Source of the DNA: Candidatus Sumerlaeota bacterium
GTDB lineage: Bacteria > Sumerlaeota > Sumerlaeia > JAFGJS01
Length of the DNA: 64,000 nt
Direction: 5' to 3'
Assembly (NCBI GenBank): GCA_016928995.1
Contig: JAFGJS010000151.1
Location: 1 to 64,000, forward strand
Part shown: positions 51,038 to 55,226 of the stretch, piece after piece
Position numbering within the stretch: the stretch's first letter is position 1
Layout of the letters: every line of letters starts with the position of its first letter
The notes under the pieces: generated by a model
The model's database searches: none
What the model saw: only the letters and a program-made list of their open reading frames with translations
Told to the model about the DNA's origin: nothing
Made by a program: the position numbers and the translations under genes

Positions 51038-53224
51038 TCAGGACTTCAATCCCCGGGCGGCAATCTTCCGTTCCCAGCGCGCCGAACCATGACGTGCGGC
51101 GTCCACCACGCTCTGCGGCGCATGCGCCCAAGGCACGCGCAAGACGCTGTCCTGATACACGTTGCTGTTCGCCACATAGATGCTCGTGGCGTCGCTTCCC
51201 GCGCTCAACCGCTTGAGCGGAATCGGATCGGGCAGTTCGTCCGCCACTTCGACATGATCCGGAAAAAAGCGGATCGTTCGGCGAAACCGGCCATCCGCGC
51301 GGCGTTTGCCGGTGATCAGAATCTTCTGGATCGTGGAGCGCAGCAAATTCGGAAAAAATCGCCCGGCGGTTATGTTGAGCAACCGAAACACGACCATGCG
51401 CAGGGGGCTGTTGAGTTTTTGCTGGCGATAACTGAATTCGCCGTCGCAACTGAAAGCCGGCGCGGCGTTGGGATCATGATTCGACGCGGGCGAGACTTCC
51501 AAATTCCGAGCCTTCACTTCGTGAAGTTCATCCATCAAGTGCGAAACAATCACTTTTCCGTTGTCCAACTCGCCGATCAGTCCGGTGTCGCTCGCGAGGC
51601 ATTGAAAACTTTCCGGCGACAACTCTGTACTTTCTTCCGGCGTAGAACCGTCGGGATAAACGCGCGGCATCCATTCCCGGATCTGCGCCTCCAAGGCCAC
51701 GACCAATTTGACTGGAACGCCAGTCTGGCGCTCCAATTCCATGCGCAGTTGCGCATTCAACGGATCGGCCACCGCCGTCAGGAGTTCGCCTTCTTCCATC
51801 ATGCAAATCGGCAGACAGCAATAATGCTCCGCGAGATCCGCAGGCAAGCGCTCCGCCACGCCGGGATCGAGTTCGTCGTCGAATTCATTCAGGTCAGCGA
51901 ACATCAGATCACGATTTTCGCACAGCAGGCGAACCATCTCCTCGCCGCTGACTTCGATGGCGTCCGATTCCTTGAAAATTTCCGCCTGACGCGCTTCCTT
52001 CTCGTATTGATCGTAGAGCGTCTTCGCGTCGAAACGGTTCGTATACGACGCCGCGTCGATCTTTCCGGGCGAGCGTCCGAACACCTTGATTACGCCGCCC
52101 TTGTTCAGGTTCGCCACGGCGTAATACGCGTCCGTCTTGCAGACCGCCAGCCCCGCGTCGGGATGCCATTTGAGGAAATTCTCGCGCGTGTTGATCGGCG
52201 GAAAACGCTGCTCGCCGTTCGCAGGCTGGGACGGCTCATAATAATCATCCCACGCCTGAAGCCAGTTATACACGCAATGGCATAGCATCCGGTCGTCGTC
52301 GTTGTGATAGCGCTTGTCCGCCGCCAACGAGCGTAGAAACTGATCCGCGATCTGCCCGGCTTTTTCCGAATGCCGCGCAATCAGCTCGAAGCCGTGCGGA
52401 TAAAAATGATACGTGTTGCGGCTGCCGTACTCGCCGCCATAGGAGCCGTCCGGATGCATGAAATGCCAGGCGAAATCGACCGCCCGTTTCAGCGGATCGA
52501 GCAACTCATCGTATGGCTCGCCTTGCGCCTCGCTCTTCCGGTGCAGTTTGGCCAGAAAGTCGATCGTGCAGGTATGGTATCCCGGATCCGCGCCTTCGTA
52601 TTCCTGGAACCAGCCCTCTTCCGGATGCTGCCAGGAGAGCGTCAACGCCGCCCGGTCCTCAGCGCACTGCCGGTATTTCTCATCGCCCGTGATGAGATAG
52701 ATATTATACGCAGCCAAAGCCACAAAGGCCTGATGATTGGAGAGTTGTCCGGTTTCCTGATAACGGATGAACAGCTCGCCGCGCCGCTGGAAAAACTCCG
52801 CCAACTCCGGATCGTCCAGTTGCAGCAGTTGATACGCTTCGGTGATCGCGTACGTGGAGAACGCCAGCGCCCCAAGCGCTTGCTCCCACGGGAAATAATC
52901 GTCGCACGAACCATCCTTGTGCGAGCCGCGCATGGCAAAATGCATCCCTGCGACGGCCAGTTCCCGCATCCGCTCCCATTGGCAATACTTGTTACCCGGA
53001 TAGTTGCGCACAAATAGCTGCGCGAAAGGCAGCACGAATTCCTGGCTCATGCCGCAAGGAAAATCGAGCGTGCGGTAATGCCAGTATTCCCGGTCAAAGC
53101 AACCGTAAGACGGGCTGTATGGATTTTTATCGCAAAGCTGCGTCAAATGCGGAACATAATCCAGCGCCAGCGCCGCATACCGGTCGCGCGGCTGCAAAGC
53201 GGCAAAGTGTCGAAGGTGCGTCAT
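51038..53224 (-). CDS. Alpha/alpha-toroid protein with inserted GspE-N/MshEN-like domain
   Basis: A 728-residue protein. Residues 1-345 form repeated helix pairs with Trp/Tyr/His-rich loops, like polysaccharide lyases or glycoside hydrolases of the toroid type. Residues 355-392 and 544-670 look like beta-sandwich parts. Between them, residues 421-522 match a type II secretion ATPase N-terminal (MshEN) domain: VSGEEMVRLLCENRDLMFAD, then VAERLPADLAEHYCCLPI, then LLTAVADPLNAQ. The RLG motif needed for strong c-di-GMP binding is not seen. No signal peptide is visible. The enzyme activity is unknown. Confidence 0.7.
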   Translation of the reverse strand: MTHLRHFAALQPRDRYAALALDYVPHLTQLCDKNPYSPSYGCFDREYWHYRTLDFPCGMSQEFVLPFAQLFVRNYPGNKYCQWERMRELAVAGMHFAMRGSHKDGSCDDYFPWEQALGALAFSTYAITEAYQLLQLDDPELAEFFQRRGELFIRYQETGQLSNHQAFVALAAYNIYLITGDEKYRQCAEDRAALTLSWQHPEEGWFQEYEGADPGYHTCTIDFLAKLHRKSEAQGEPYDELLDPLKRAVDFAWHFMHPDGSYGGEYGSRNTYHFYPHGFELIARHSEKAGQIADQFLRSLAADKRYHNDDDRMLCHCVYNWLQAWDDYYEPSQPANGEQRFPPINTRENFLKWHPDAGLAVCKTDAYYAVANLNKGGVIKVFGRSPGKIDAASYTNRFDAKTLYDQYEKEARQAEIFKESDAIEVSGEEMVRLLCENRDLMFADLNEFDDELDPGVAERLPADLAEHYCCLPICMMEEGELLTAVADPLNAQLRMELERQTGVPVKLVVALEAQIREWMPRVYPDGSTPEESTELSPESFQCLASDTGLIGELDNGKVIVSHLMDELHEVKARNLEVSPASNHDPNAAPAFSCDGEFSYRQQKLNSPLRMVVFRLLNITAGRFFPNLLRSTIQKILITGKRRADGRFRRTIRFFPDHVEVADELPDPIPLKRLSAGSDATSIYVANSNVYQDSVLRVPWAHAPQSVVDAARHGSARWERKIAARGLKS

Positions 53225-53246: not shown

Positions 53247-53660
53247 TCAATTAGCTAGAAAAGAATATAATCTCGCACGTAATTTATCACATTTTTTTAT
53301 CTCGCATTCCCAGACGACTAACACACTCCACCCTATCTTCTTTAGCGCCTTTCTGTTTGCTTTGTCACGTTCAACGTTCCGCATGAGTTTCGGTTTCCAG
53401 TATTCCTGATTGGATTTTGGCATTCTCGAATCCAAGCATGTTTTCAAATGATGCTGATGCCAAAAACATCCATGCACAAAAATCACTTTTTTCTTTCCAG
53501 CAAAAACAAGATCAGGCTTGCCAGGTAAATTTTTGCGATGAAGCCGGTACCGGAATCCCATGCTAAAAATCAAACGGCGCACAACCATCTCCGGCTTTGT
53601 ATCCTTAGATCGGATTTGCCGCATATTCTCACTACGTCTTTTCGGACTGATTTTGTCCAT
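53247..53660 (-). CDS. vsr: Very short patch repair endonuclease
   Basis: A 137-residue nuclease that nicks beside T:G mismatches left by deamination of 5-methylcytosine. RSENMRQIRSKDTKPE at residue 10, GKPDLVFAGKKKVIFVHGC near 47 and FWHQH are the family core, with the catalytic Asp present. It overlaps the HNH gene by 29 bases and is the third gene of the cytosine methylation operon, where it protects against the methylase's mutagenic effect. Confidence 0.93.
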   Translation of the reverse strand: MDKISPKRRSENMRQIRSKDTKPEMVVRRLIFSMGFRYRLHRKNLPGKPDLVFAGKKKVIFVHGCFWHQHHLKTCLDSRMPKSNQEYWKPKLMRNVERDKANRKALKKIGWSVLVVWECEIKKCDKLRARLYSFLAN

Positions 53661-54243
53661 GATTCATAAATTGGCAAGTTTGTTGCGGAAACTTTTGAAC
53701 GAGCCATTTGAGCACCTGGACTTGATCGGCTCCTTTGGCCCGGCGCACTTGCGCCAATAATTTCAACGCAGAAGGCCGTTCTAATGTTAAGTTCGAGGCT
53801 CCTTCATTACACACTGAACAAATCGCACGCAGATTAGACGGATCATCGGTTCCGCCCTGTGATTTATCCACGATATGACCAATATGCAGCCGCGTTTTAC
53901 GCGTTCTGTCATACGGATGAGGTTCGCCTGCAACAGCGCCGCACATCTGGCAGGTGAAGCCGTTGCGATCCAAAACAAACGCGCGTGTCTCCTTTGATAT
54001 AGCTCGTGCAAATGCGGGTTGTGGCTTGGGATCAAGAAGCAAATACTGACCCGGTTTTAAATCACTCCGGTCATTGTTTGTGAGAATCTGGTAACCTTCT
54101 TCGTTCCTCAACTCTCGTATCCGTCTGGCCCATTCCACTCTGCCACCGCTGACTTCATGCAGTTCATCAGAGTTCATCACTCTGCCAATGTTACTCAAAA
54201 AGTGCTCACGAAGCTTTGTACGAGCGCTTTTATTCTTAGCCAT
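53632..54243 (-). CDS. HNH endonuclease (probable restriction enzyme)
   Basis: A 203-residue protein. The C-terminal half is an HNH nuclease with CQMCGA near residue 113, the core HIGHIVDKSQGGTDDPSNL near 132, and CSVCNEG closing the zinc site. The N-terminal half may bind DNA. It lies between a cytosine methyltransferase and vsr, so it is probably the cognate restriction enzyme. The frame is open to 54294, but the ATG at 54243 has AGAGGA seven bases upstream. Composition is AT-rich compared with the surroundings. Confidence 0.85.
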   Translation of the reverse strand: MAKNKSARTKLREHFLSNIGRVMNSDELHEVSGGRVEWARRIRELRNEEGYQILTNNDRSDLKPGQYLLLDPKPQPAFARAISKETRAFVLDRNGFTCQMCGAVAGEPHPYDRTRKTRLHIGHIVDKSQGGTDDPSNLRAICSVCNEGASNLTLERPSALKLLAQVRRAKGADQVQVLKWLVQKFPQQTCQFMNHGQNQSEKT

Positions 54244-54254
54244 CAATCTATCCT

Positions 54255-55226
54255 CTAACCAGCGATGGAAATAATCTTTGGATGAGCCAGACATTCCTTG
54301 ATCGCGTGAGCGGCAGCATACGCCACAGGTGGAGGAAATGCATTACCCACCTGCCGGTATGCTGGCGTTTTCTTTCCTGCAAATATCCATTGGTCCGGAA
54401 AACCTTGGATTCTCGCCACCATTCGCACGGTTAAACGGGGCATGCCTTTGAAATTCTTGTCGGGAGGAAGATCAGCGATCCCCATGCCATCCACGCCTAA
54501 CGAAGCCCAAGCTCTTTTTGCGCGCGTCGGTCCCAAATCGGGTCCGCCATGTTTTTTTGAACCGCCCACAATCGTGGGCGCAATATCATCCGCTTGTTTC
54601 CGCCATTGATCGGCCATTTTCCAATTTCGCGCTGCCATCAAGTCATATAACAACTCTCCAACACATAAAGGATTCTGGTTTGCGATGGATGGCCATGAAA
54701 AATATTCAGATATATCTTTTCTAATTGCAACGACAACAACTCGTGGCCGCAATTGAGATACTCCAAAATCTGAAGCGTTGAGCAACCGCCAATCCGTACG
54801 ATAACCCAACTTCTCTAACTGCCGCTTGAGATTGGCACGATAATCCTCAAAAACAGCATCCAAAAAGCCACGAACATTTTCCAGCATCACCGCGCGCGGT
54901 CTGCATTCATCCACTAACCGAAGCGCTTCGGGAAATAAATCACGATCATCCGCTCGCCCAAGTTGTTTACCGGCCACGGAAAATGGAGGACATGGCACTC
55001 CCCCCGCTAGCAAATCGATCCCACGATAACGCTCCGCGCTGAATTGACGGATATCATCCTCAATCACATGCCACTTCGGCCGGTTATAGCGCAATGTGTC
55101 GCAACATGGCTTTTCAATCTCAACAAGCGCCTCTGGCTGGAATCCCGCTTGTTCCAGTCCTAAAGCTTGCCCCCCGGCTCCTGCGCAAATCTCAATGCAC
55201 GAGAGATCTAACATCACAATGCTCAT
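54255..55226 (-). CDS. DNA cytosine-5 methyltransferase
   Basis: A 323-residue methylase that adds a methyl group to C5 of cytosine. Motif I is EICAGAGGQALGL at residue 12, motif IV with the catalytic Cys is GGVPCPPFS near 75, motif VI is LENVRGF near 114, motif VIII QLRPRVVVV near 157, and motif X is QVGNAFPPPVA near 294. The target-recognition part is about 185-255. The sequence specificity is unknown. It leads the methylase-HNH-vsr operon and is AT-rich, fitting horizontal gain. Confidence 0.94.
   Translation of the reverse strand: MSIVMLDLSCIEICAGAGGQALGLEQAGFQPEALVEIEKPCCDTLRYNRPKWHVIEDDIRQFSAERYRGIDLLAGGVPCPPFSVAGKQLGRADDRDLFPEALRLVDECRPRAVMLENVRGFLDAVFEDYRANLKRQLEKLGYRTDWRLLNASDFGVSQLRPRVVVVAIRKDISEYFSWPSIANQNPLCVGELLYDLMAARNWKMADQWRKQADDIAPTIVGGSKKHGGPDLGPTRAKRAWASLGVDGMGIADLPPDKNFKGMPRLTVRMVARIQGFPDQWIFAGKKTPAYRQVGNAFPPPVAYAAAHAIKECLAHPKIISIAG

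Follow-up and report, generated by a model that had tools for sequence, protein, structure and literature searches.

How does a domain of the MshEN type, known from assembly ATPases and some glycosyltransferases, come to sit in the middle of a protein that otherwise resembles a toroid enzyme acting on sugars, and what could it do there? The question is raised by one open reading frame (51038-53224, minus strand, as are all features of the window given below) in the window, that is, the whole stretch of 64,000 nucleotides that was analysed. From the frame itself, its homologues and an HHalign comparison with a Hepar_II_III alignment, its 728-residue product is described here as a heparinase II/III-like toroid and beta-sandwich with an inserted MshEN domain.

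According to the preliminary description, residues 421-522 of this protein (about 51964-51656) read like such a domain and their flanks like one beta-sandwich split in two. The location was right, although the inserted segment proved to be wider, covering residues 383-541 (159 residues, 51602-52078), and the split is borne out by the 29 distinct homologues spanning the site, which have in the alignment only a short beta turn there, of four residues in 27 of them and of six in the other 2. Upstream of the segment lie the first beta-sandwich strands (residues 345-382, 52079-52192, from AF2 strands and the alignment) with KGGVIKVF at their end, the AF2 strands of this part being placed at residues 350-354, 359-363, 367-372 and 378-384; downstream of it the remaining beta-sandwich (residues 542-728, 51041-51601, from the alignment and AF2) begins with CLASDTGLIGEL. 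The joints, GGVIKVF and CLASDTGLIGEL, are two beta-sandwich strands in the AF2 model (378-384 and 540-546). A native origin of the segment within the toroid family is ruled out by its absence from the 29 homologues, and since it is also lacking in the nearest of these, which share 64% and 61% identity with the host part, the insertion arose in the terminal lineage.

Within the segment the ND1/MshEN_C domain takes up residues 424-527 (51644-51955), as delimited by Pfam, by an HMM built for the class (426-525), by AF2 and by Foldseek. The Pfam MshEN model (PF05157) matches residues 447-526 with 53.9 bits, the cut-off being 23.1 (E=1.8e-14), and with 58.3 bits in the whole-genome search; the only NCBIfam matches over the insert are to the MshEN parts of the NfrB and PilB models, and phmmer against the PDB found PilB chains over about residues 429-546. 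The full-protein AF2 model, made from host homologues alone, gave the insert a pLDDT of 30-50, because no alignment rows covered it; a separate model was built for the insert from four MshEN rows, supplied by a scan of viral contigs with an ATPase alignment, since MshEN fragments became misaligned when added to the full alignment. The resulting model of residues 413-538 has a pLDDT of 77, about 80-91 in the core, and consists of helices and three strands, as in the alpha/beta fold of MshEN_C. Its best Foldseek match in the PDB is MshE (5htl, TM 0.68, rmsd 1.8), followed by the GSPII domains of PilF, the N-domain of PilB with PilZ (7lko) and the N-domain of XpsE (2d27), while the ND1 of EpsE in the EpsE/EpsL complex (2bh1) matches more weakly and over fewer residues (TM on target 0.72). 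The predicted fold is thus MshEN, not an unrelated one, and chance or low-complexity similarity is ruled out by the Pfam score together with this fold. Hence the MshEN-type domain in a sugar-active-looking toroid protein, as originally noticed, is upheld by the profile, by the fold and by the homologues without the segment. Of the T2SSE ATPase domain (PF00437), present in seven MshEN proteins of the same genome, no match was found in the 728-residue protein.

With a draft genome in 161 contigs as the source, one may ask whether the arrangement is a chimera made in assembly or binning. The reading frame is, however, intact across both joints; the insert, with GC of 0.570 and GC3 of 0.673, matches the host parts (0.578-0.590 and 0.717); and its identity to the closest MshEN domain of the same genome is no more than 36%, so that a mix-up with that gene does not come into question. 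We regard a chimera as hardly credible.

The genome contains twelve MshEN domains. Among those that were scanned, seven belong to T2SSE ATPases, and one more protein (L083) is PilB by its NCBIfam score; the others are in small proteins on contigs C95 and C141, near a contig start (C88), and in the insert. At L081:4279-5064 and L089:5258-6022 lie small MshEN proteins (about 260 residues) that lack an ATPase domain, the former directly preceding a T2SSE ATPase. Across 39 genomes of the class, the MshEN domain closest to the insert is that of a PilB/GspE-like ATPase of the same genome, on contig C62, which adjoins a PilT-family gene (36% identity, 74 bits, the next one reaching 56). When 37 MshEN domains were placed in a tree, the insert grouped with the C62 domain as its sister (split support 89), on a branch about nine times longer (1.35 against 0.15), and the longer loops of the C62 clade are present in the insert as well. 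By its sequence, the domain seems to have been captured by this lineage from the bacterium's own PilB-like ATPase of the C62 type, after which it diverged and kept its fold. We consider it highly likely that anatomy and origin are as described, an MshEN_C/ND1 domain of such descent in a beta-hairpin turn, the anatomy being solid and the origin well supported. It is a new architecture made from known modules and seen once: a single genome, in draft assembly, carries the insertion, and there is no second example.

Such a capture may have consequences or none. Insertion into a beta turn, an easy site for accepting a domain, would be compatible with a folded passenger that is tolerated on a permissive hairpin tip, has no partner and keeps its fold because the enzyme would suffer if it misfolded. 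About 20% of multidomain proteins contain a domain insertion (PMC13114784), and the singleton character of the insert, its long branch and the loss of half of the clade-conserved positions go in the same direction. On the other hand, when the C62 DNA was drifted neutrally to 36% identity, in a simulation that assumes an intact C62-like ancestor and leaves room for part of the divergence to predate the capture, the MshEN score fell to 11±7.5 bits with a maximum of 41 (300 runs), against 73 for the insert, and even after drift to 60% identity none of the 300 runs reached this value. A score so far above the neutral expectation indicates that the fold was kept by selection, and a mere passenger need not retain family-specific residues such as ADPLN, P460 and P471. 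The insert keeps prolines, glycines and many hydrophobic positions, the DDLRLL helix being changed; among the 47 positions that the ATPase clade conserves it differs at 25, whereas a similar count for C62 gives 11 of 51. On balance we find the passenger doubtful.

The preliminary description tied the enzyme to a second messenger or to a secretion machine, and itself doubted c-di-GMP binding for want of the RLG motif. This motif is indeed absent from the insert, and the doubt can be sharpened, as the entire MshEN_N (ND0) half is missing: the insert starts at about the last helix of MshEN_N, with only about 40 residues before the matching helix, while in MshE both c-di-GMP binding motifs lie in MshEN_N, residues 1-64 (Wang et al., PMC5013675). 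NF053729, the model of the c-di-GMP motif, has no match in the 728-residue protein or in the C62 ATPase, and matches three other ATPases of the genome. With the MshEN_N motifs missing and this model unmatched, c-di-GMP binding by the insert appears unlikely. Were the insert a c-di-GMP sensor controlling the enzyme, in the manner of MshE or NfrB, it would find four GGDEF proteins and other ATPases with MshEN_N motifs of the c-di-GMP type encoded in the same genome, and NfrB itself combines a glycosyltransferase with an MshEN domain (PMC8669469). Against this stand the loss of the half with both 24-residue binding motifs and their lack also in the donor-type C62 ATPase, so we hold such a switch to be very improbable. 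MshE (PDB 5HTL), itself a c-di-GMP receptor, belongs to the same Pfam family as the insert and differs from it by having the MshEN_N half. NfrB likewise joins MshEN to a glycan enzyme; here, however, only residues 425-535 match its NCBIfam model, the 728-residue protein has no glycosyltransferase domain (no match to a GT family) and no c-di-GMP motif, and its MshEN sits in the middle of the host fold.

What is then the host? The alpha/alpha toroid (residues about 1-335, 52220-53224) is defined by AF2 helices and by Foldseek similarity to AGE-type epimerases, PL33, PL8 and GH88; the full-length model matches toroid epimerases, these lyase and hydrolase families and GAGase VII, with TM values limited by the poorly modelled insert. 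HHalign of 22 relatives and the 728-residue protein against 20 Hepar_II_III proteins of the class gave a local alignment of 376 columns with a probability of 96%, while six Hepar_II_III templates gave only 14% over 115 columns, for which reason we speak of remote homology: the host appears to be a remote relative of the heparinase II/III toroid enzymes. In this alignment the Asn-His pair, the YH of ADPGYH and the HPDG motif coincide with their heparinase counterparts. Candidate catalytic residues are Asn163-His164 (52733-52738), invariant in the 22 relatives and aligned to the heparinase II/III Asn-His, and Tyr216 (EYEGADPGYH, 52577-52579), likewise invariant and aligned to the (SPM)YH motif; the beta-sandwich His562 (51539-51541), nearly invariant in relatives (invariant in alignment A1, at least 90% in A2), is a possible fourth one. 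The host part retains 142 of 151 conserved positions, among them all of these four. Direct searches were silent: no match to the Pfam heparinase II/III model (PF07940 and its relatives) was found in the 728-residue protein or the 22 relatives at E up to 1, none to an NCBIfam heparinase II/III family in the 728-residue protein, and none in PDB profile searches with the host sequence, so that outside MshEN the protein has no convincing curated family in Pfam or NCBIfam. The toroid family of the host bears no Pfam or NCBIfam name.

The superfamily comprises PF07940 proteins, polysaccharide lyases such as PL33, and dermatan sulfate epimerase. The likeness to it consists of toroid and beta-sandwich, with Asn-His and Tyr-His motifs that align; in contrast, the host has an extra pair of conserved helices and no apparent signal peptide in its N-terminal sequences, read by eye. 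These two hydrophobic and basic helices (residues 607-637, 51314-51406) have an unusual look for a heparinase-type beta-sandwich and could contact the membrane; R614, G621, R622, Q633 and K634 are invariant, with TGK at 638-640. The simplest reading is a cytoplasmic, membrane-near lyase or epimerase that would act on a lipid-linked or nascent glycan. The glycan turnover proposed initially for this protein we infer at the level of the fold only.

Host homologues occur in 25 of the 39 class genomes (E<=1e-30) and are scattered elsewhere, including Desulforhabdus and a Phyllobacterium megaplasmid, the latter being the one distant full-length homologue in the plasmid collection and carrying no usable annotation; scans of viral contigs for close kin of insert or host gave no match. 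In many relatives the host-type gene directly adjoins genes for GT2 and LPG_synthase_TM that are read in its own direction, a neighbourhood that points to glycan synthesis or modification; in others its neighbour is a methyltransferase, beta-helix or ABC/Wzt-like gene. The recurrent arrangement of GT2, heparinase-like toroid and LPG_synthase_TM, at times with a methyltransferase, was noted at L046-L053 and L060-L074. It could be argued from such neighbours, and from the fast divergence of the insert after capture, that the domain was re-tooled, as an adaptor or an allosteric element, to serve a new partner other than a pilus machine, for instance a glycosyltransferase of the pathway or the LPG_synthase_TM protein. 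But in the genome that carries the insert the cassette is dispersed, the nearest LPG_synthase_TM gene being on contig C119, and we think this re-tooling rather improbable.

There remains the other tie of the preliminary description, to a secretion or pilus machine, which we find plausible because ND1 domains dock on proteins of the GspL/PilM type. The half that was captured corresponds to the ND1 of Llontop et al. (PMC8389850), according to whom GspE and EpsE have ND1 without ND0, ND1 binds the cytoplasmic domain of GspL/EpsL in structures, PilM is the pilus counterpart and is probably bound, and PilZ binds the ND0/ND1 region of PilB in X. citri. The insert resembles this ND1 (EpsE-ND1:EpsL, PDB 2BH1; GspE:GspL, 4PHT) in having no ND0, with moderate Foldseek matches, and differs in its carrier, which is no T2SSE ATPase but a glycan-type enzyme enclosing it. 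As its most likely function we suggest that ND1 on the hairpin tip serves as a protein-protein dock. Through it the enzyme would reach a partner at the inner-membrane platform that resembles PilM/GspL or PilZ, and the modification of glycans would then be placed at, or regulated by, the pilus or secretion machine. Genes for PilM_2 proteins lie on contigs C50, C48 and C73 of the genome and those for PilZ proteins on C129, C100 and C131; adjoining the host gene, no gene for a pilus or for secretion was found.

To the whole of this explanation, a captured ND1 acting as a dock for the enzyme, we give a probability of roughly 0.5. That the docking is specifically on a partner of the pilus or secretion platform is proposed tentatively, by analogy: in T. 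thermophilus PilF binds the platform via PilM and no single GSPII domain is essential (PMC6325625), hence the ND1 docking rule is not universal, and since about every second clade-conserved position has changed in the insert, its partner may differ from that of the ATPase. The boldest version, in which the enzyme would sit on a PilM/GspL-type inner-membrane ring and carry out a surface-glycan reaction at the pilus motor or in competition with it, seems to us unlikely. In the literature that was searched, no paper treats MshEN together with heparinase. In the present case one half of MshEN, without the half that binds the nucleotide, seems to derive from an ATPase of the same lineage, from which it was copied into the middle of an unrelated enzyme, to be conserved thereafter. 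Should it still dock, the fusion would be a natural experiment showing that ND1 is a portable tether, and in a bacterial class that has been little studied it would join the modification of surface glycans to a pilus or secretion machine. Even without docking, the protein clearly exemplifies the capture of a domain at a beta turn, from a donor family that can be traced.

Two further observations concern the gene and its kin. The closest homologue in the class (L017, G008:C789) is apparently broken near its C-terminus, the match being split across two frames, with one TGA within a match. In the window, a C5 cytosine methylase, an HNH nuclease and Vsr form a compact restriction/repair cassette (53247-55226), whose HNH part is IscB-like (partial match to NF040563); it ends 22 bases ahead of the start codon with which the inserted-domain gene opens, and the two are possibly co-transcribed.
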